A stretch of 44,535 nucleotides of DNA, taken from NCBI RefSeq assembly GCF_015354405.1, contig NZ_JADKYP010000053.1, positions 1 to 44,535 of the forward strand, given 5' to 3'. Below are positions 19,244 to 36,884 of this stretch, piece by piece. Every line of letters starts with the position of its first letter. The stretch's first letter is position 1. Source of the DNA: Nocardia sp. BSTN01. GTDB taxonomy: Bacteria > Actinomycetota > Actinomycetes > Mycobacteriales > Mycobacteriaceae. The notes beneath the pieces are model-generated. The model saw nothing but the letters and a program-made list of their open reading frames with translations. It ran no database searches and was not told the DNA's origin. A program made the position numbers and the translations under genes.

Positions 19244-19909
19244 TCAGGCGTTCAGCAGCCGCGGGAGTCCGCCCAGCTCCGTATCGATGCGCCGGCGCAC
19301 CGCCGGCCATTCCTCGTCCAGGATGGAATAGAACGCGGTGCTGCGCACGGTGCCGTCCAAGCCGCGCGAATGTGCCCGGCGGACGCCATCGCTGGTCGCG
19401 CCCAGACGCTCGATCGCCTTGCGCGAGCAGACGTTTCGCACATCGGCGCGCAGCGCGATCCGCCGGACCCGCCACACGTCGAAGGCGTGCTCGAGCAGCA
19501 ACAGTTTCGACTCCAGATTGATACCGGCGCCGCGCGCCTGTGCGCAGAGCCAGGTATTGCCGATCTCGGCGGCATCGGGCACCGCGAGCAGTGGATCTCC
19601 GGTGGGCATCCCGTGCACGACCGGCCATACCATCGGCCCCTGCCAGTAGTCGAAGCGGCAGAAGCGCGTCGAACCCAGGACCCGGTTGTCGGCCGTGGCG
19701 ACGACCGCGAAGGCCAGTGCCGAACCGACCGCGTGCGCCGCCGCGGCCTGGGCGACGTAGTCCGCCGCCTCGGCGGGGCCGTGCGGTACGGGGGTGAACG
19801 CGAATGCATCGCGATCCGCGGCGCCCGCCTCGGCGAGCCCCGGAACATGGTGCGGTGCCAAAGGTTCCAGCCGCACGAGGCGGCCGGTCAGGATGACGGG
19901 TGCAGGCAC
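19244..19909 (-). CDS. GNAT-family N-acetyltransferase (RimJ/RimL-like)
   Basis: 221 residues from GTG 19909, with GAGGGA upstream. The fold is recognisable from LTGRLVRLEPLAPHHVPGL at the start, GSTRFCRFDYWQ, the strand EIGNTWLCAQARGAGINLESKLLLLEHAFD (acetyl-CoA loop region) and VRRIALRADVRNVCSRKAIERLGA near the end. Members acetylate N-terminal amines of proteins or small-molecule amines; the target here is unknown. The frame continues upstream to 20014 but only in intergenic-like sequence. Confidence 0.9.
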   Translation of the reverse strand: MPAPVILTGRLVRLEPLAPHHVPGLAEAGAADRDAFAFTPVPHGPAEAADYVAQAAAAHAVGSALAFAVVATADNRVLGSTRFCRFDYWQGPMVWPVVHGMPTGDPLLAVPDAAEIGNTWLCAQARGAGINLESKLLLLEHAFDVWRVRRIALRADVRNVCSRKAIERLGATSDGVRRAHSRGLDGTVRSTAFYSILDEEWPAVRRRIDTELGGLPRLLNA

Positions 19910-28194: not shown

Positions 28195-28270
28195 CGCAGC
28201 CTCCCAAGTTACGAACAGTAAGCAGCAGCATCATCCGCCGGAATAGTGCAGCAGCGCATCTGCGCCTCAC

Positions 28271-28321
28271 TTCTGGCAGGCGACCTTGCCAAAAACGAAT
28301 TTCTGGTAGAGGATCTTGCCA
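28271..28321. promoter_or_regulatory. Tandem TetR-type operators before the MpaB-type oxygenase gene
   Basis: Two 21-base units 30 bases apart (28271-28291 and 28301-28321) share TTCTGG at the left and CTTGCCA at the right. Each is an inverted repeat TGGYA-N8-TGCCA, perfect in the first and with one mismatch in the second. The second ends 22 bases before the GTG start, so a bound repressor would cover the promoter. GGAGG follows at 28332-28338. Confidence 0.6.
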
Positions 28322-28343
28322 GATCTTCGATGAGGAGGACCCC

Positions 28344-29567
28344 GTGACGCCCACCGTTCCGCTGCGGCACCCGAGCGCACCGCGCCCCGTTCCGGGCCCC
28401 GGCCTGGGCACCCTCGCCCGGATGCTCGGGCTCAGCACACCGGGCCCGGAGGAATTTCGCGAGCTGGGCGAGGCCCTGACCGTGGGCGACCGGCCGATGG
28501 ACGAGCTCGTCGAGTGGATGTACCGCGAGGGGATGGCCACTACCCGGCCGCTGTTCGAACGCGCCCTGCGGGAGGGCATCGCCGCGGTGCCGGAAGCCCC
28601 GGAGCCGCTGCGCGAATTCTTCGAATACGTCGAAACGGTGCCCGAGTGGGTCGATCGGCGAAAGATCCGCCATGCCGAGCGCGTCTCCTGTCTCGGCGGC
28701 CGCGACGGGATCTACGTCGCCCGCGACATGTCGTTCCTCGGCGGCTACCTGGCCTCCGGTTTCAACAAGACCCTGCTGCGCACCGGCGCCTTGGAGAAAG
28801 GCCCGGCGAAACGGTTCGCCGAGACCACTCAGTGGGCGATGGATGTCACCGCACCCGGCGGAATGGCATTGCGGGGCAGCGGTTTTCGCTCGACCGTGCA
28901 CGTCCGGCTGATCCATTCGCTGGTGCGCCGGCACGTGGCCGCGATGCCGGACTGGCGGGCCGAGGAGTGGGGACTGCCGATCAATCAGACCGATATGGCC
29001 GCCACACTGGTCGGCGCGGTGATCGCTCCGATGATCGGCGCCATCGGCATGGGAGTCGTGATCACGCCCCGCGACGCGGACGCCATGGCCCATCTCGCCC
29101 GCTACGTCGGCTGGGTGATGGGTGTCGAGGAACGCTTCCTGCCCACCGACTTTCGCGACAGCGTCCGCATTCTCTACCACACGTTGACCGCCATCACGAA
29201 CCCCGACGACACCTCCCGCCAGCTCGCGATCCCGATGCGCGACGAACCGCTCGGCTGGCACTACGACCATCTGCAGGGGCTGCGGCGACGGATCGCCCGA
29301 TCCCAGCATCTGTCGATCGCGATGATGTATCTGGGCCCGTCCGCGATGAAACGACTCGGACTGCCCAGTCGCACCCTGCCCTGGTATCCCGTGCTGCGCA
29401 TACCGATCAACCTCGCGCGGTCGGCGCGGGCCCGGCTGATTCCCGGGCAGTTCGAGCGCGTCGTAGCCGAAGGCCGGGCCGCGCAACTGTCGTTCATCCG
29501 CACCCTCGCCGGCCCCGACGCCGCGGTGATCGGCGGGTCGGCCGAGCACATCACCCCGGCCGCCTGA
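28344..29567 (+). CDS. MpaB-family (DUF2236) oxygenase-like protein
   Basis: 407 residues from GTG 28344 behind GAGGAGG. The long N-terminal region with PLRHPSAPRPVPGPGLGTLARMLGL and the core with VARDMSFLGGYLASGFNKTLLRTGAL and RVRLIHSLVRRHV-like segments place it in DUF2236, which contains the latex-clearing protein Lcp and fungal MpaB. Characterised members bind haem b and cleave C=C bonds oxidatively. Candidate haem ligands here are the His residues in RLIHSLVRRH. Upstream tandem operators suggest ligand-dependent control. Confidence 0.85.
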   Translation: MTPTVPLRHPSAPRPVPGPGLGTLARMLGLSTPGPEEFRELGEALTVGDRPMDELVEWMYREGMATTRPLFERALREGIAAVPEAPEPLREFFEYVETVPEWVDRRKIRHAERVSCLGGRDGIYVARDMSFLGGYLASGFNKTLLRTGALEKGPAKRFAETTQWAMDVTAPGGMALRGSGFRSTVHVRLIHSLVRRHVAAMPDWRAEEWGLPINQTDMAATLVGAVIAPMIGAIGMGVVITPRDADAMAHLARYVGWVMGVEERFLPTDFRDSVRILYHTLTAITNPDDTSRQLAIPMRDEPLGWHYDHLQGLRRRIARSQHLSIAMMYLGPSAMKRLGLPSRTLPWYPVLRIPINLARSARARLIPGQFERVVAEGRAAQLSFIRTLAGPDAAVIGGSAEHITPAA

Positions 29568-29580
29568 ACCGCTCGCCCGG

Positions 29581-30807
29581 CTACTCCGCGACATCCGTCC
29601 ATGTCACCGGAAGTTCGTGCACCCCATAGATATTCATATCGGTCCGCAACCTCACCGCATCGGCCGGGACGGCCAGGGCCAGGGTCGGGAAGCGGCGTAG
29701 CAGGCCGGCGAATCCGGCGCGCATCTCGATCCGGGCGAGTTGCTGGCCGAGGCACAGGTGCATGCCGTGCCCGAAGGACAGGTGGCCGCGGGCCGTGCGG
29801 TGCACGTCGAGGGTGTCGGGGTCGTCGAAGCGGCGTGGGTCGCGATTGGCGGCCAGCAGCGAGACGACGACGGTCGAACCCTTGCCGATGGTTTCGCCGC
29901 CGAGCTCGATGTCCTCGGTGGCGTAGCGGTAGAAGATGTCGGCGACCGAGAGGTAGCGCATGAGTTCTTCGACCGCATCGGGAACCAGGGCCGGATCGGC
30001 ACGCAGCTCCGCCGCCTGTTCCGGATGCTCGAGCAGCGCGAAGGTGCCGAGCCCCAGCATGTTCGCGGTGGTCTCGTGCCCCGCCAGCAGGAGCAGGAAG
30101 GCGATGCCGGTCAGTTCCTCGACGGTGAGATCGTCGTGGCGGGCCAGGTCGGAGAGGATGTCCTCACCCGGTTCGGCGCGCTTGCGGACGACGAGTTCGG
30201 CGAGATAGGACGTCAGCGCGCCGTAGGCCGCCATCTTCTCCTCGAGCGCCTGGTCCTTGACGAGGAACTTGGCCGAGTTGACCTGGAAGGTGTCGCGATC
30301 CTCGTAGGGAACCCCGAGCAGTTCGCAGATCACCAGCGAGGGCACCGGCAGGGCGAACTCCGCTACCAGATCGACCGGCGGGGTCAGCCGCGCCATCGCC
30401 TCCAATTGCGCCTCGACGATGTCCACGATGTGGTCTTCGAGCTGCTTCATCCGTCTGACGGTGAAGGCGCCGACGAGCTTGCGCCGCAACCGGGTGTGGT
30501 CCGGCGCGTCCATCGCGATGAACACGCCGGGGATCTGCGGTGAGGGCTCGGTGGCGGCGGGCATGCCCGGAATCTCGTAGGGCACATGCAGAACGCCGAT
30601 GTCCTGACGTGAGCTGAACCGGGAGTCGGCCAGGAGGCTGCGCACCTCGTCGTAGCCGGTGACCAGCCAGCCCTCGTGTCCGTCGGGAAAGATCATCGGA
30701 CTGACGGGGTGAGCATCACGCAGCCGGGTGATCTCGCGGGGCGGATCGAAGGGGCCCGCATTGCGGTCCATGGGCAGGCCGTGCGGGACCGAAACCGTTC
30801 GGGTCAT
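29581..30807 (-). CDS. Cytochrome P450 monooxygenase (CYP107-like)
   Basis: 408 residues from ATG 30807 with GAGGAA upstream. The I-helix oxygen-activation motif is LLLAGHETTANML (about 240), the K-helix ExxR is EELMR, and the haem-binding loop is FGHGMHLCLGQQLAR with the axial Cys at about 350. Short soluble bacterial class I P450, needing separate ferredoxin and reductase, neither of which is nearby. It lies 46 bases behind the DUF4097 gene and probably shares its promoter and the CTGA-repeat operator. It may act on a substrate handled by the DrrAB-like exporter; this is inference from shared regulation. Confidence 0.95.
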   Translation of the reverse strand: MTRTVSVPHGLPMDRNAGPFDPPREITRLRDAHPVSPMIFPDGHEGWLVTGYDEVRSLLADSRFSSRQDIGVLHVPYEIPGMPAATEPSPQIPGVFIAMDAPDHTRLRRKLVGAFTVRRMKQLEDHIVDIVEAQLEAMARLTPPVDLVAEFALPVPSLVICELLGVPYEDRDTFQVNSAKFLVKDQALEEKMAAYGALTSYLAELVVRKRAEPGEDILSDLARHDDLTVEELTGIAFLLLLAGHETTANMLGLGTFALLEHPEQAAELRADPALVPDAVEELMRYLSVADIFYRYATEDIELGGETIGKGSTVVVSLLAANRDPRRFDDPDTLDVHRTARGHLSFGHGMHLCLGQQLARIEMRAGFAGLLRRFPTLALAVPADAVRLRTDMNIYGVHELPVTWTDVAE

Positions 30808-30853: not shown

Positions 30854-31498
30854 CTAGGCGGCGGACGCGTGCTGGATAACGACGTTGCCGAGGGCGCTGC
30901 GCGCGTACACCCGCACGGTGTGCTCGTCGTCCTGGGCGCCGTCGACCGGCCCCAGCTGGTTGTGCACGGCGCCGCTCGCGACCATGGTCTCCAGCCGCGC
31001 CGCGCTCCCCGGACGGATGCCGACCTCCAGATCGCCCACCGAGGTCTCCAGCCGCAGCACACCGCGGGTGGCCTCGCCGATCCGGATATTGCCCTGGGCG
31101 GTCTTCGCGGTCACCGAACCGAGCGGACGCTCGACGACGATGTCACCGGCCGACACCTCCAGCACGCAGTCGCCGAGCTCGCCGGCGCCGAGGATTCGGC
31201 CCACACCGGCGGTGCCCTGGACGCGGGAGCCGGTCGGCACCTCGATGGTCACCTCGATCGACGGATTGCCGCCGAAGGGGGTGTAGGTCCGCCAGTCCTT
31301 CGGCGTCGTCACGGTCAGGGTGCCGTCGGCGAAGTCGACCCGAGTCTGCTCGGCGGCGCGCACATCGGCCTTCTTGGCCGGATCGGCGGGGCGGACCGCG
31401 ACGACGGTGTCGGTGCGATCGGAGGCGATGACGGTGACGTTGCCGGACAGCACCTCGACGGCGACGGCGATCGGTTCCGGGGTCTGGAAAGTAGACAT
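30854..31498 (-). CDS. DUF4097-family beta-rich protein
   Basis: 214 residues from ATG 31498 behind CAGGAG. It is built of repeated short strands with alternating hydrophobic residues (VAVEVLSGNVTVIAS, LEVSAGDIVVERPLGSVTAKTAQGNIRIG, LETSVGDLEVGI), the right-handed beta-helix style of DUF4097. The frame stays open without a stop to GTG 31591. Residues VNSTAI there match the first residues of the DrrA-like ATPase 5 kb away, and that GTG lies at the leaderless position of the shared promoter, so a 245-residue form or a translated leader is possible. In actinobacteria such proteins often travel with BTAD regulators and ABC exporters. Function unknown. Confidence 0.82.
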   Translation of the reverse strand: MSTFQTPEPIAVAVEVLSGNVTVIASDRTDTVVAVRPADPAKKADVRAAEQTRVDFADGTLTVTTPKDWRTYTPFGGNPSIEVTIEVPTGSRVQGTAGVGRILGAGELGDCVLEVSAGDIVVERPLGSVTAKTAQGNIRIGEATRGVLRLETSVGDLEVGIRPGSAARLETMVASGAVHNQLGPVDGAQDDEHTVRVYARSALGNVVIQHASAA

Positions 31499-31598
31499 GG
31501 TGTTCTCCTGGGTTCTGCTGGGAATCGGGCGGCGGGATCGGGTGATCCGGCCGGTGAACCGGTCCGCGGGGCGGATCGCTGTGCTGTTCACGAGAACT

Positions 31599-31604
31599 AC
31601 TGTC
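31599..31604 (-). promoter_or_regulatory. -10-like hexamer of the DUF4097-P450 promoter
   Basis: On the minus strand it reads GACAGT (xAxxxT), 7 bases before GTG 31591 and 10 bases from the nearest CTGA repeat. The same hexamer (CACAGT) occurs at identical spacing before the exporter gene at 36807-36812. Confidence 0.5.
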
Positions 31605-31614
31605 GCCACCCCGG

Positions 31615-31654
31615 CTGATATCGGGCTGACGCCGGCCTGACATGCCCGCTGACA
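31615..31654. promoter_or_regulatory. SARP-type operator 1: four CTGA direct repeats
   Basis: CTGATA (31615), CTGACG (31626), CTGACA (31637) and CTGACA (31649) are spaced 11, 11 and 12 bases, about one helical turn. BTAD/SARP and AfsR-type winged-helix regulators bind direct repeats with an 11-base period upstream of the -10 region. It lies between the divergent DUF4097-P450 and BTAD-regulator genes and is repeated at 36823-36862. Confidence 0.7.
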
Positions 31655-31753
31655 TCATGTTTCCGCTGGTCGAGGCGGTCGAATGTGATGTCGCACGAGC
31701 TCTTGTCAGCCCTGGGCCGGGCGATCTCACACCGGTCGGCCGGCCACGGCAGA

Positions 31754-34700
31754 ATGATCGGGGTGCGAATCGGGATGCTTGGAACGCTCGACATCCGGGC
31801 AGATGACGGTGAAATGATCGAAATACCGGGCGTCCGGTTGCGGGCGCTGCTGATCGCCCTCGCACTCGAACCGGGCCGCGCGGTCCCGAAAGCGTCACTG
31901 GTCGACTGGATCTGGGGCGAGCAACCACCCGCCGATGCCGCGAATGCGTTGCAGGCGTTGGTCTCCCGGTTGCGGCGGGTGCTGCCGGACGGTTCGCTCG
32001 ACGCGCAGGCGGGCGGTTATCGGCTGGCAGTGGACCCGAGCACGGTCGACGCGTTGCGGTTCGAACGGCTTCTCGATCAGGCCCGCGGCGGTGACGTCGT
32101 CCGGCAGACGCACCTGCTGCGCGAGGCCCTGGACCTGTGGCGCGGGGCGCCGATGCAGGACCTCGATGCCGGCGACAACGAGGCGGTCGCGGCGGTGGTC
32201 ACCCGCTTCGAGGGTTTGCATCTGGCCGCGCTGGAAGATCTGTACGAAGCCGAGATCCGTCTCGGTCGCGGACCGGATCTGGTCGCCGAACTCACCGAGT
32301 CGGTCGCCCGGCATCCGGTCCGGGAGCGGTTGGTCGCCGCACTGATGCGGGCATTGGCCGCCGCCGGGCGCGGCGCCGAGGCGCTGCTGGTCTATCAGCG
32401 AGCTCGGGAGGCACTCGCCGACACCCTGGGCGTGGATCCCGCACCGGAACTGTCCGATCTGCACGTGGCTCTGCTGCGGGGCGAAGCGGGGCCCCGAGAC
32501 ACCGAACGCAAGACCAACCTCCGCGCCGAATTGACCACCTATGTAGGCAAATACACCGATATCGCCGCCGTGCGCGAACTCATCGCGAACCATCGGCTCA
32601 CCACCTTGACCGGTCCCGGCGGCTCGGGGAAGACCCGGTTGGCGCTGGAGACCGCGCGCACCCTGCTCGACGATCTGCCGGACGGGGCGTGGCTGGTGGA
32701 ACTGGCCTCCGTCGGGGCCAGCGGAGACGTGGCGCAATCGGCCCTCGCCGCCTTCGGGCTCCGGGACGCCCTGCTCGGCGGGGCACCGGACGCGGAACCG
32801 ATGGACCGGCTCGTCGCGGCGATTCGCGATCGCGAGACCTTGCTGGTCCTGGACAACTGCGAGCATGTGATCGATGCGGCGGCGGCCTTCGCCCACCGGG
32901 TGCTCGGAGAATGCCGGGGTCTGCGGATCCTTGCCACCAGCCGGGAACCACTGGGCATCACCGGTGAGGCGTTGTGGCAGGTAGCACCGCTGGCACTGCC
33001 CGCCGAGGACGCGGATCCGGCCGAGATCGAATCCTCCCCCGCCGTGCAGTTGTTGCGCGACCGGGCCGGTGCGATCCGCACCGATCTGGATACGGCGAAT
33101 CCCGGCACCCTGTCGACCATCGCGCGCGTCTGCCGCGCCCTCGACGGCATACCGCTCGCCATCGAACTGGCCGCGGCCCGGTTGCGCACCATGTCGCTCG
33201 ACCAACTCGCCGACCGCCTCGACGATCGCTTCCGCCTGCTCACCGGCGGCAGCCGCACCGCCATCCCGCAGCACCGGACGTTGCGCGCGGTGGTCGATTG
33301 GAGCTGGGAGCTGCTCACCGATGCCGAGCGGATGGTGCTGCGCAGGCTGGCGGTGTTCGCCGGCGGCGCGAGTCTCGAGGCCGCCGAGCAGATCTGCGCG
33401 GGCGTATCCGGCGCACCGGGGGAAGTCGAGCAGTGGGAGGTGCTCGAACTGCTGACGGCGCTGACCGAGAAGTCGCTGCTGCTCACGGCGGCCGACAGCG
33501 AACCCCGCTACCGGATGCTCGAGACGATCAGGCGGTACGCCGACGATCGCCTGGTCGAGGCGGGCGAATCGGAACCTCTACGACGGCAGCATCTTTCGTA
33601 CTTCACGACGCTCGCCGAGACCGCGGAGCCGCATCTGCGCCGCGCCGAGCAGCTGGAGTGGCTCGCGAGGCTCGAGGCCGAACACGACAACATCGCGCTG
33701 GCCCTGCGCGGCGCGCTCGCCGACGACGACGCGGCGGGAGCGATGCGGCTCGCGGCGGCCGCCGGCTGGTACTGGTGGCTCGGCGGGCACAAAGCCGAAG
33801 GTATGGAACTGATCACCGCCGCGGCACGCATCGGCGGGCACGAAGGCGGCAGCGAAGCGTCACCACGCAGTGCCCTCGACAGTGCCGCCAATGACCCAGC
33901 ACGCATCGGCGGGCACGAAGGCGGCAGCGAAGCGTCACCACGCAGTGCCCTCGACAGTGCCGCCAACGACCCAGCACGCATCGGCGGGCACGAAGGCGGC
34001 AGCGAGAATGCTTGCACCGCAAACGATTCGGGTGACGACGAATTCCGGGCCAGGGTCTACGGCTTGATCGTGCATTTCATGAGTTCCGGGCCGAACGACG
34101 AACACCAGGTGGCGGAATGGGTCCACAAGGCCTACCAGCTCGGCCGGAACGGCGAATCCGACTATCCGCTACTGGCTTTCATCGGCGCGTTGGAGCGCAT
34201 GTTGCGCGGCGGAGACGAATTCCTGACCGCATTCGAACCGCTGCTCACCCACGACGATCCCTGGGTGCGGGCGCTGGCACGGCTGCAGGTGGGCAAGGCG
34301 CGCATCGCCCTCGGCTTCCCCGGCCGGGAAGCCGACGACCATCTCGAGACGGCACTGGCGGAGTTCCGGGCGCTCGGCGAGCGCTGGGGCATGTCGTTCG
34401 CGCTGACCGAACTGGCCAACAGGATCGCCATGCGCGGCGAATTCGCCACGGCCGGTGCCTATCTGGACGAGGCGATCGCGGTGGTCACCGAAGTCGGCGC
34501 CATCGAGGACGTGTTCCTGATCCGGGCGCGCCAGGCTCAACTGTATTGGCTGCAGGGCGATGCGGAGGCGAGTGCCGACGCCATGTCCGAAGCGCAGCGG
34601 TACGCGGACCGGTCCGCCTGGCCGAACGCACTGGCCGAATTCGCGTTCACGAAGGCGGAGCTGGCGCGGTGGCAGGGCGATACGGAACAGGCCCTCCGGC

Positions 34701-35107
34701 AGATCGAGATCGCGACGTCCGCGCAGGGCAGCGACGCCGGCCAGAGCTACGTCGACGCCTTACGGAACCACCAGATGGGTTGTCTCACAACAGATCTGAA
34801 TGCCGCTCGTACGCTGCACGCCGCGGCGTTCCGCGCCGCGACCGGCGCCGGCTACGCACCTCTCACCGCCCTGATACTGGTGGGGATCGCGGATCTGGCG
34901 TCGCGGGCCGAGCAGGACGAACAGGCGGTCCGGTTGCTGGCGGCCAGCGCCGCGATTCGCGGCCTGGTCGACCGGTCTCAGCCGGATGTGGCGCGGATCG
35001 AGCAGACAGCACGACGCCGCCTCGGTGACCAGCGGTTCACCGAGGCGACGAAGGAAGGGGCAGAGGGAAACTGGGAGGAATTGGTGGCGACTACGCTCGC
35101 TTGTTGA
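31754..35107 (+). CDS. BTAD (AfsR/SARP-type) regulator with NB-ARC ATPase and TPR domains
   Basis: 1117 residues from ATG 31754; GTG 31763 (VRIGMLGTLDIR) is also plausible, and no strong Shine-Dalgarno is seen. Domains in order: winged-helix DNA-binding (about 1-95, RLRALLIALALEPGRAVPKASLVDWIWGE), BTAD (about 100-245), STAND/NB-ARC ATPase with P-loop TGPGGSGKTRLA near 286 and Walker B LLVLDNCEHV near 362, a winged-helix/arm region, then TPR-like helices to the end. A linker of two and a half 25-residue units lies at about 691-752. These proteins activate transcription when ATP and an inducer release autoinhibition. The likely targets are the two CTGA-repeat promoters in this window. The 3' end overlaps the exporter permease stop by 17 bases. 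Confidence 0.93.
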   Translation: MIGVRIGMLGTLDIRADDGEMIEIPGVRLRALLIALALEPGRAVPKASLVDWIWGEQPPADAANALQALVSRLRRVLPDGSLDAQAGGYRLAVDPSTVDALRFERLLDQARGGDVVRQTHLLREALDLWRGAPMQDLDAGDNEAVAAVVTRFEGLHLAALEDLYEAEIRLGRGPDLVAELTESVARHPVRERLVAALMRALAAAGRGAEALLVYQRAREALADTLGVDPAPELSDLHVALLRGEAGPRDTERKTNLRAELTTYVGKYTDIAAVRELIANHRLTTLTGPGGSGKTRLALETARTLLDDLPDGAWLVELASVGASGDVAQSALAAFGLRDALLGGAPDAEPMDRLVAAIRDRETLLVLDNCEHVIDAAAAFAHRVLGECRGLRILATSREPLGITGEALWQVAPLALPAEDADPAEIESSPAVQLLRDRAGAIRTDLDTANPGTLSTIARVCRALDGIPLAIELAAARLRTMSLDQLADRLDDRFRLLTGGSRTAIPQHRTLRAVVDWSWELLTDAERMVLRRLAVFAGGASLEAAEQICAGVSGAPGEVEQWEVLELLTALTEKSLLLTAADSEPRYRMLETIRRYADDRLVEAGESEPLRRQHLSYFTTLAETAEPHLRRAEQLEWLARLEAEHDNIALALRGALADDDAAGAMRLAAAAGWYWWLGGHKAEGMELITAAARIGGHEGGSEASPRSALDSAANDPARIGGHEGGSEASPRSALDSAANDPARIGGHEGGSENACTANDSGDDEFRARVYGLIVHFMSSGPNDEHQVAEWVHKAYQLGRNGESDYPLLAFIGALERMLRGGDEFLTAFEPLLTHDDPWVRALARLQVGKARIALGFPGREADDHLETALAEFRALGERWGMSFALTELANRIAMRGEFATAGAYLDEAIAVVTEVGAIEDVFLIRARQAQLYWLQGDAEASADAMSEAQRYADRSAWPNALAEFAFTKAELARWQGDTEQALRQIEIATSAQGSDAGQSYVDALRNHQMGCLTTDLNAARTLHAAAFRAATGAGYAPLTALILVGIADLASRAEQDEQAVRLLAASAAIRGLVDRSQPDVARIEQTARRRLGDQRFTEATKEGAEGNWEELVATTLAC
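33824..34007 (+). repeat. 75-base in-frame tandem repeat inside the BTAD regulator
   Basis: Units start at 33824, 33899 and 33974, an exact 75-base period. The first two are complete and differ by one synonymous Asn codon change (AAT/AAC); the third stops after about 33 bases. Each codes for 25 residues beginning ARIGGHEGGSEASPRS. The period is a multiple of three, so copy-number change would keep the frame. A shorter related word (GGCGGGCAC followed by AAAGCCGAAGG) occurs just upstream at 33782. Confidence 0.92.
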
Positions 35108-35858
35108 ACGTGGCACGCGACCAGAGGAATCCGACCACGGCGAATCCGGCGCACCAGGCCAGCGCGGCGGCCGTATAACCGCCGGACGGGTGGCCTTCGA
35201 GAAATCCGCGCAGCGATTCGATGATCGGCGTGAACGGCTGGTACTGCGCGAACTGCCGGATACCCTGGCCCATCTTGTCGGCCGGCACGATCGCACTGCT
35301 CACGAAGGGCAGCATGATCAGCGGCACCACGCTCATACCGGCGGATTCCGGTGTTTTCGCGGCCATTCCGAGTGCGACGGTGAGCCAGGATGCCGCGAAC
35401 GAGGTCGCGACCATGATGCCGACGGCGGCGAGCCAGTCCGTCGCACTGGCCGGCGGTCGGAACCCCAGCGCGAAGGCCACACCGATGACGGCCGCGATGG
35501 CGACCAGGTTGGTCAGCATGGTCGCCGCCACATGACCGATCAGGATGGCGCTGCGGGAGACGTCCATGACCTTGAACCGGTTGATGATGCCCTTCGCCAT
35601 ATCGGAGCTCACCGACACCGCGGTGCCGGACAGGCCGTAGCTGATGGCCAGCAGGATCAAACCCGGTGTGGCGTAATCGATGTAATGGCCGCCGACATCG
35701 AAGGCATTGCCGAAGACGTAGACGAAGATCAGCATCATCACGACCGGCATCAGTGCGGCGTTGAAGATGGTGACGGGGGTGCGGGCGATGTGGGTGAAGT
35801 TGCGGCCCAACATCATCGACGCGTCGGACAGCGATGCGGGCATGGTGATCGTACTCAT
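35091..35858 (-). CDS. DrrB-like ABC-2 type exporter permease
   Basis: 255 residues with six membrane helices typical of ABC-2 permeases. Recognisable parts are NFTHIARTPVTIFNAALMPVVMMLIFVYVFG, ATPGLILLAISYGLSGTAVSVSSDMAKGIINRFKVMDVSRSA (coupling region) and a final basic KRA. It forms the membrane channel for the ATPase encoded just upstream, with a 4-base overlap (ATGA at 35855-35858). Such exporters give daunorubicin-type drug or lipid efflux. Its stop lies inside the end of the BTAD regulator gene on the other strand. Confidence 0.93.
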   Translation of the reverse strand: MSTITMPASLSDASMMLGRNFTHIARTPVTIFNAALMPVVMMLIFVYVFGNAFDVGGHYIDYATPGLILLAISYGLSGTAVSVSSDMAKGIINRFKVMDVSRSAILIGHVAATMLTNLVAIAAVIGVAFALGFRPPASATDWLAAVGIMVATSFAASWLTVALGMAAKTPESAGMSVVPLIMLPFVSSAIVPADKMGQGIRQFAQYQPFTPIIESLRGFLEGHPSGGYTAAALAWCAGFAVVGFLWSRATFNKRA

Positions 35859-36799
35859 CGCGGGGAAACCTCCGTGGTCGCGTGACCGGTCAGGGAAAGG
35901 AAAACGTCGTCGAGATCGGGGGTGTGGACGGTGACCTCCTCGGCCTCGACCGAGGACTCGGCGAGCCGATCCAAAAGGTGGCGCAGGGATTTCGTGCCGC
36001 CGTTGCCGGGGACGCGCAGGGTCAGCGCGCTGTCGTCACGGGTGGCGCCGGGCAGGCTGCGCGCGGCGACATCCAGTTCCCCGGGTTGGGTGAAACGAAG
36101 CCGGATGTGGCTGCCGGGCACCAGGCGCTTGAGGTCGTCGGGTGTGCCTTCGGCGACGATGCGCCCCTGGTCGAGTACCGCGATCCGGTCGGCCAGCTGG
36201 TCGGCTTCCTCGAGGTACTGGGTGGTGAGGAAGATCGTCACACCCTCGGAAGTCAACTCCCGCACGATGTCCCACATCGTGCGCCGGCTGCGCGGGTCCA
36301 GTCCGGTGGTCGGCTCGTCGAGGAAGACGATCTGCGGTTTGGTGATCAGCGTCATCGCCAGATCCAGCTTCCGGCGCATACCGCCGGAATAGGTCGCCGC
36401 GCGCTTACCCGCGGACTCCACCAGATCGAATCGCTCCAGCAGGTCGGCCACCACCCGCTTGCCCGCATCTCCGCGCAGGCGATGCAGGCCCGCCATCAGG
36501 CGCAGGTTCTCCTCCCCCGTCAGCAGATCGTCCACCGCGGCGAACTGCCCGGTCACCCCGATCGCCGCCCGCACGGCCTTGCCCTCGGTGGCGAGATCGT
36601 GCCCCGCGATTCGCGCCGTCCCGCCGTCGGCCTTCGCCAACGTGGTCAACACGTTCACGGTCGTCGTCTTGCCGGCCCCGTTCGGACCGAGCAGCGAGAA
36701 GATGGTCCCGGCCTCGATGGTCAGATCGATCCCGTCGAGGATCGTCTTGTCCCCGTATGCCTTCCGCAACCCGGAGGCGGCAATTGCTGTGCTGTTCAT
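35855..36799 (-). CDS. DrrA-like ABC exporter ATP-binding protein
   Basis: 314 residues from ATG 36799. Walker A GPNGAGKTTTVNVL, signature YSGGMRRKLDLAM, Walker B IVFLDEPTTGLDPRSRR, and the DrrA-type C-terminal extension after about 220. It has no Shine-Dalgarno: a -10-like CACAGT lies 7 bases before the ATG, so the message is probably leaderless. The CTGA-repeat operator immediately upstream matches that of DUF4097-P450, as do the first codons (MNSTAI), indicating shared control by the BTAD regulator. Confidence 0.95.
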   Translation of the reverse strand: MNSTAIAASGLRKAYGDKTILDGIDLTIEAGTIFSLLGPNGAGKTTTVNVLTTLAKADGGTARIAGHDLATEGKAVRAAIGVTGQFAAVDDLLTGEENLRLMAGLHRLRGDAGKRVVADLLERFDLVESAGKRAATYSGGMRRKLDLAMTLITKPQIVFLDEPTTGLDPRSRRTMWDIVRELTSEGVTIFLTTQYLEEADQLADRIAVLDQGRIVAEGTPDDLKRLVPGSHIRLRFTQPGELDVAARSLPGATRDDSALTLRVPGNGGTKSLRHLLDRLAESSVEAEEVTVHTPDLDDVFLSLTGHATTEVSPR

Positions 36800-36806
36800 G
36801 GGGACA

Positions 36807-36812
36807 ACTGTG
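36807..36812 (-). promoter_or_regulatory. -10-like hexamer of the DrrA-like gene
   Basis: Reads CACAGT on the minus strand, 7 bases before ATG 36799 and 10 bases from the nearest CTGA repeat; spacing is identical to 31599-31604. Confidence 0.5.
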
Positions 36813-36822
36813 CGGCGGACGG

Positions 36823-36862
36823 CTGATACGCCCCTGACGCCGGCCTGACACGACCACTGATA
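36823..36862. promoter_or_regulatory. SARP-type operator 2: four CTGA direct repeats
   Basis: CTGATA (36823), CTGACG (36834), CTGACA (36845) and CTGATA (36857), again spaced 11, 11 and 12 bases. The whole 80-base region 36783-36862 aligns without gaps to 31575-31654 (58 of 80 identical by eye), with differences concentrated in the spacers between repeats and before the -10 box. Confidence 0.7.
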
Positions 36863-36884
36863 CGGAGTTTTACCTGGTCAGGCC

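Follow-up and report, generated by a model that had tools for sequence, protein, structure and literature searches.

Paired four-repeat operator-promoters beside an AfsR-like SARP gene of Nocardia sp. BSTN01, predicted to control a conserved regulon

The DNA analysed here (called the window) is a 44.5-kb stretch of Nocardia sp. BSTN01, positions 1 to 44,535 of contig NZ_JADKYP010000053.1. Two of its segments, 31575-31654 and 36783-36862, align without gaps, and each carries a predicted operator-promoter with four direct repeats. Promoter 1 precedes the genes of a DUF4097 protein and a cytochrome P450, and promoter 2 precedes drrA and drrB, which encode an ABC exporter; these four are referred to as the cassette genes. 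Between the two promoters, in the opposite direction, lies the gene of a large BTAD/SARP regulator. The features are as follows:

31599..31655, minus strand: operator-promoter 1 (DUF4097-P450); TCAG words at 31652-31649, 31640-31637, 31629-31626 and 31618-31615, -10 box GACAGT at 31604-31599
36807..36863, minus strand: operator-promoter 2 (drrAB); TCAG words at 36860-36857, 36848-36845, 36837-36834 and 36826-36823, -10 box CACAGT at 36812-36807
31763..35107, plus strand: BTAD/SARP regulator, 1114 residues, with winged helix, BTAD domain and P-loop ATPase region
31750..31755, plus strand: likely -10 box of the regulator gene, CAGAAT, 7 bases before GTG
35855..36799, minus strand: drrA, ABC exporter ATPase (TIGR01188 322.8 bits, above the cut-off of 312.45), with a probably leaderless ATG
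35091..35858, minus strand: drrB, ABC-2 permease (ABC2_membrane 2.3e-22)
31574..31591, minus strand: probable relic of a drrA start, GTGAACAGCACAGCGATC, matching the drrA start in 16/18 letters
30854..31498, minus strand: DUF4097 (toastrack) protein (PF13349 7.2e-9), with AGGAG before ATG 31498
29581..30807, minus strand: cytochrome P450 (PF00067 9.6e-27), behind the DUF4097 gene in the same direction

Read on the minus strand from far to near, each promoter consists of TCAG-12-TCAG-11-TCAG-11-TCAG (start-to-start distances), 10 bases, [GC]ACAGT, 7 bases and a start codon, which is GTG (31591) at promoter 1 and ATG (36799) at promoter 2. On the plus strand the words read CTGA and begin at 31615, 31626, 31637 and 31649, and at 36823, 36834, 36845 and 36857 (spacing 11, 11 and 12). 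The original prediction, made from the letters of the window, had described a gapless pair with four CTGA words at this spacing and NACAGT 10 bases further on, and the alignment bears it out. It had also held that differences cluster in the spacers. The two copies differ at 0/27 informative and 18/30 other positions (p 3e-7), informative positions being defined from 91 distinct sites that include both window sites. Because the pair had been chosen by its 16 TCAG letters, the test was repeated without them and the clustering persisted (0/11 informative against 18/30 other positions, p 8e-4). The likeness of the two promoters is real and far above chance.

The exact four-word array occurs at three places in the 7.79-Mb genome, namely the two window sites and one on contig C163, and the reversed pattern, used as control, has 0 matches there; a three-word match on contig C130 lacks the fourth word. 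For scoring, a held-out matrix was trained on 18 sites of the SP133 family only (SP133 being a protein of about 133 residues encoded behind sites outside the cassette locus); among them are the own genome's SP133 site and sites upstream of a hydrolase gene that comes first in some SP133 operons. Over the window this matrix gave 53.7 bits at promoter 1 and 43.9 bits at promoter 2, and the third-best place scored -11.4.

Coverage of the cassette genes was assessed with the held-out matrix, a gene being counted as covered if a site lay within 520 bp or if it stood behind a same-direction gene with a site. The 48 loci comprised the window and 47 of the 49 regulator orthologue places outside the own genome (left out: G009, at a contig edge, and G032); L106 and L111 hold no cassette genes and add nothing to the total. 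A site covered 132/135 cassette genes. drrA had its own site above 10 bits in 32/32 loci (weakest: L104, 16.3 bits, and L105, 13.7 bits; reversed loci reached at most -2.9), and drrB stood behind a sited gene in 32/32. For DUF4097 the counts were 25 with an own site, 12 behind a sited gene and one with none, and for P450 19, 12 and two. DUF4097 came before P450 12 times, P450 before DUF4097 seven times and DUF4097 behind drrAB five times; with the gene order varying in this way, the array is tied to the gene set rather than to a single position. The array is thus conserved upstream of orthologous genes, as had been predicted.

Sites outside the cassette locus precede SP133. The own copy (contig C163:19858-20256, equal to L113:6120-6518, with its site at 19727-19764) matches no Pfam family and no NCBIfam family, and a sequence search of solved structures with SP133 returned mostly designed helical proteins, none better than E 0.002. 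SP133 was found in 37/59 Nocardia genomes, with up to five matches. In a reverse test, with a matrix from the other 73 sites and 30 kept loci (one per genome, of the 37 genomes matched), an array lay within 300 bp upstream of 22/30 kept copies. In five more copies an alpha/beta-hydrolase match (in L129 a fragment) separated the gene from an array lying 410-1016 bp upstream. SP133 is fused to a second domain in L209 and L226, which in L226 is a PF00144-family serine hydrolase, and in L219 and L225 what appears by the look of the sequence to be a PF00144-type serine hydrolase follows the site alone. SP133 is a new protein family and a predicted co-target of the operator. The regulon first proposed (DUF4097, P450 and a DrrAB-like exporter) was supported but incomplete: SP133, an alpha/beta hydrolase, serine hydrolases and, in some species, a ferredoxin have to be added.

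Beyond the own genome, the scan that the prediction had called for found the array, with up to one mismatch, in 121/149 Nocardia genomes (own included), the reversed control giving 7 matches in 6 genomes. The exact array was present in 22/29 Nocardia genomes and in 0/272 genomes of 30 other genera of Mycobacteriaceae. Among 59 Nocardia genomes, tallied by hand, 47 had both the array and a regulator orthologue, two the regulator only, one the array only and nine neither (Fisher p 4e-8). Orthologues were defined here by more than 900 bits, a threshold set once it was seen that scores fell from 920 bits to 533 bits at the next separate locus. With two mismatches allowed, there was still no array in the nine genomes with neither. 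In a class sample that counted 197 genomes together with the own one, 8/18 genomes with an orthologue and 4/179 without had the array at one mismatch (p 4e-7), orthologues being taken at E up to 1e-220, a threshold that also admits 60-62% matches. A scan of a sample of GTDB genomes gave at least 116 stretches; among the 80 matches listed, those beyond Nocardia include arrays before drrA, DUF4097 or SP133 relatives in Kibdelosporangium, Amycolatopsis, Catenulispora and Glycomyces, and the array-bearing genomes of these genera have a regulator orthologue at 68-73% identity. The pattern of array and regulator recurs in several families.

Some apparent arrays were set aside. The four class-sample genomes with a one-mismatch array and no orthologue (G460, G555, G589, G607) scored -6 to -24, and the others 29 or more. 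An exact array in Streptomyces varsoviensis (L192) is part of an 11-base tandem repeat, GCTCAGGGGCC; no place in the locus scored above -26.5, and the best regulator match of the whole genome was 46%.

The regulator has an N-terminal OmpR-type winged helix (Trans_reg_C 3e-7) followed by a BTAD domain (3.1e-33) and an ATPase (NOD) region (AAA_22 27.1 bits at a cut-off of 27; P-loop GPGGSGKT), and the domain search reported no TPR family. It matches AfsR chains at 5e-32, the alignment spanning query residues 2 to 594; EmbR aligned too. Its start was taken as GTG 31763, which GGCAGAATG precedes in 26/29 loci compared, one of the other three being cut by a contig end. As no TCAG array lies on the regulator strand within 60 bp upstream of this start in the loci compared, the regulator is probably not autoregulated through the array. 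The regulator gene itself looks leaderless (window 31750-31765).

The site consensus was derived from the 91 distinct sites, selected on the TCAG words alone (one mismatch or none); the constancy of the words is therefore built in and that of the remainder is not. The repeat unit is approximately GTGTCAGgnCG. In the -10 box GACAGT, A at position two and T at position six are invariant (91/91 sites), which fits a -10 box of the sigma-70 type. In all 32 drrA loci the distance from this box to the start codon is 6 nt (11 loci) or 7 nt (21 loci), and the same holds in 30/30 at a stricter score. Leaderless genes show such a short distance, and drrA is very probably leaderless because of it. With the transcript start assumed at the drrA start codon, the TCAG words fall at about -26, -37, -48 and -60.

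This register was compared with that of AfsR at afsS of Streptomyces coelicolor (PMC10936776 and PMC10972967, both cited from excerpts). In the solved AfsR complex, positions -40 to -19 form the afs box and positions -38 to -33 the -35 element TTCAGC, which places TCAG at -37 there as well (PMC10936776). Both regulators combine winged helix, BTAD domain and ATPase region; at both sites direct repeats of 11 bp precede a weak -10 box (CACTGT at afsS, GACAGT here), with TCA of one repeat at -37 (PMC10936776). The afsS site differs in having two repeats, CGTT[T/C]ATCGNN (PMC10972967), against four TCAG words at 12-11-11 here, and AfsR has other genes as targets. DnrI, ActII-ORF4, VlmI and FdmR1 have three heptamers and SanG, PolR, CcaR and PieR two; sites of the DnrI/SanG type are alike in that direct heptamers overlap the -35 region, although their regulators serve antibiotic gene clusters (PMC10972967). 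PimR-type SARP-LAL proteins share the large ATP-binding part and have three heptamers with four-base spacers, but their operators do not overlap -35 and use another word (PMC10972967). No four-repeat site is found among the two- and three-heptamer sites reviewed in the excerpts of PMC10972967.

The original link to a BTAD/SARP protein thus gains from the co-distribution of the array with the regulator orthologue and from a register, relative to the -10 box, equal to that of the AfsR operator. Both window sequences are very likely operator-promoters of a conserved regulon that would be run by the AfsR-like large SARP encoded between them.

Several findings weigh against this reading. Locus L104 has no P450 site, and all three uncovered cassette genes belong to L104 and L105. 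Three of the 30 top SP133 copies lack a site; one of the kept copies without a site is that of G002, yet two other places in that genome have one (L114, L115). Among 20 distant regulator loci, 14 have a site by score and six showed none, and four of the 20 (L371-L374) were chosen from array-bearing genomes, while L377 is a second copy in G569. G018, G028 and G054 have only weak sites at the cassette despite holding the regulator, and G022 has a perfect site without a regulator; this site is identical to that of L212, where a decayed drrA start follows, and is read as a remnant after loss. The p values for co-occurrence ignore common descent. Moreover, ten Nocardia genomes without the regulator are also without SP133, and the best drrA match in regulator-less Nocardia (61-68%) is at the level of the second copy in G018; since SP133 and apparently the cassette drrA are also absent where the regulator is missing, the array tracks the module as a whole, and co-occurrence by itself does not point to the BTAD protein in particular. 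The regulator scores 149 bits with the NCBIfam AfsR equivalog NF053617, below its cut-off of 1430, and the base-contacting T88 of AfsR is alanine in the alignment as read (R92 is kept). The transcript start on which the register depends is an assumption, binding and activation by the BTAD protein are what we infer from sequence and from the AfsR analogy, and it is the family names of the target proteins that suggest detoxification.

The whole-module pattern leaves some room for an OmpR-type response regulator such as PhoP or MtrA as the protein that binds the array. Both bind direct repeats of about 11 bases and both are expected throughout Mycobacteriaceae. PhoP and AfsR share the afsS repeats and compete for them (PMC10972967). 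Yet a family-wide regulator sits badly with an exact array that was absent from the 30 other genera of the family, and beyond Mycobacteriaceae the array recurs with the BTAD orthologue; on this distribution the PhoP/MtrA explanation was rejected as highly improbable. The BTAD protein is the one known DNA-binding protein in the module.

Hardly more probable is that the BTAD protein binds the array as a repressor and is released by a ligand: an exporter with enzymes would fit a derepression response, without anything specific pointing to it; against it, the words have the register of the activator AfsR, ahead of the -10 box and overlapping the -35 place. That the likeness of the two window promoters reflects recent duplication only, the words having no function, has next to no probability. 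The drrA coding remnant in the copy does show duplication, but the copy differences avoid informative positions, and the words recur ahead of other genes across further genomes and genera.

If the regulator is an activator, as preferred here, the AfsR complex suggests by analogy that two protomers would sit side by side on the TCAG words at -37 and -26, touching sigma region 4 and the core enzyme and standing in for the -35 contact, and RNA polymerase would be recruited as AfsR does at afsS. The outer words (-48 and -60) may hold a second pair of protomers, perhaps brought in by the ATPase region, which some signal would switch. The targets activated in this way would be the probably leaderless drrAB genes, DUF4097-P450, SP133 elsewhere and the hydrolases. 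Most simply, P450, ferredoxin (in some species), hydrolases and exporter would together form a modify-hydrolyse-export response to a toxic small molecule. drrA resembles the ATPase of the DrrAB daunorubicin exporter in its TIGR01188 score, but drrB falls under the cut-offs of its subfamily (TIGR00025, DrrB-family efflux: 65.9 bits, cut-off 146.9). A bolder picture is offered tentatively and is rather doubtful: the tetra-repeat operator would be read by two SARP dimers, joined by the ATPase region only after a toxic compound is sensed, and a detoxify-export regulon with SP133 at its heart would have passed from gene to gene, and from one actinobacterial order to another, through copying of the leaderless drrA promoter along with its first codons.

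The SARPs with sites reviewed in the excerpts of PMC10972967 serve antibiotic clusters. The targets found here are not evidently in an antibiotic cluster, no systematic search for a nearby biosynthetic cluster having been made, and the literature search gave no published description of this operator or regulon among the matches listed. One orthologue group of large SARPs gains a sharp predictive operator and a defined target set, and known SARP-type control a four-repeat form. The regulon, larger and more widespread than could be seen from the window, also offers an uncharacterised conserved family as co-target and a visible route of gene recruitment.

This route is recorded behind the sites. 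In the window the homology of the two promoters extends into coding sequence: GTGAACAGCACAGCGATC behind promoter 1 corresponds to ATGAACAGCACAGCAATT in drrA. Judged by its letters, promoter 1 is a copy of the drrA promoter plus first codons, of which VNSTAI is left. A start codon 7 bases past the box had been predicted for both promoters and is present at both, but GTG 31591 is probably left over from the drrA start, and the likely start of DUF4097 is ATG 31498, which has a ribosome site of its own; alternatively, GTG 31591 may begin an in-frame extension of 31 residues. At least 14/18 drrA-start letters were found behind 8/25 DUF4097 and 10/18 P450 sites (shuffled leaders: 0 and 0.3%) and behind only 1/18 SP133 sites; 2500 shuffles of the 25 DUF4097 leaders never reached 14 letters. 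The P450 leader of L069, MNSSAIAASGLRKAYRDKTILDG, holds more than twenty drrA codons and then breaks off, and 16/40 leaders have a match in drrA DNA with an E of 1e-3 or lower. Given these drrA codons behind the sites of other genes, the promoter was copied with the beginning of drrA before new genes in many cases, and new targets would have been recruited in this way.

Operators followed by decayed drrA beginnings, that is orphan promoters, were seen in L212, L240 and L120. The leader between operator and P450 gene encodes a small protein with a ferredoxin-like Cys pattern in L074, L078, L080, L083, L097, L098 and L110; some of these open reading frames (ORFs) start in the drrA remnant, and the one in L097 matches Fer4 families in Pfam. 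At several sites of G019, G028 and G054 the third TCAG reads ACAG or GCAG or is changed further, possibly a lineage-specific shift of the word. In L108 (G028) TAG stop codons interrupt the regulator orthologue and the arrays of the genome carry one or two mismatches, which would fit a joint decay of regulator and sites.

Inside the regulator gene of the window, a 75-bp tandem repeat (33824-34005, 2.4 copies, 99%) encodes a repeated 25-residue stretch between the ATPase and C-terminal parts; among close relatives, L070 has no copy of it and L065-L068 have one to two. Beyond the P450 gene lies one further feature:

28344-29567, plus strand: MPAB_Lcp_cat (rubber-oxygenase-like) protein, convergent with the P450 gene

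The minus-strand ORF 28209-29594 had been considered as a member of the P450 operon and was rejected, the plus-strand ORF at 28344-29567 encoding the oxygenase.

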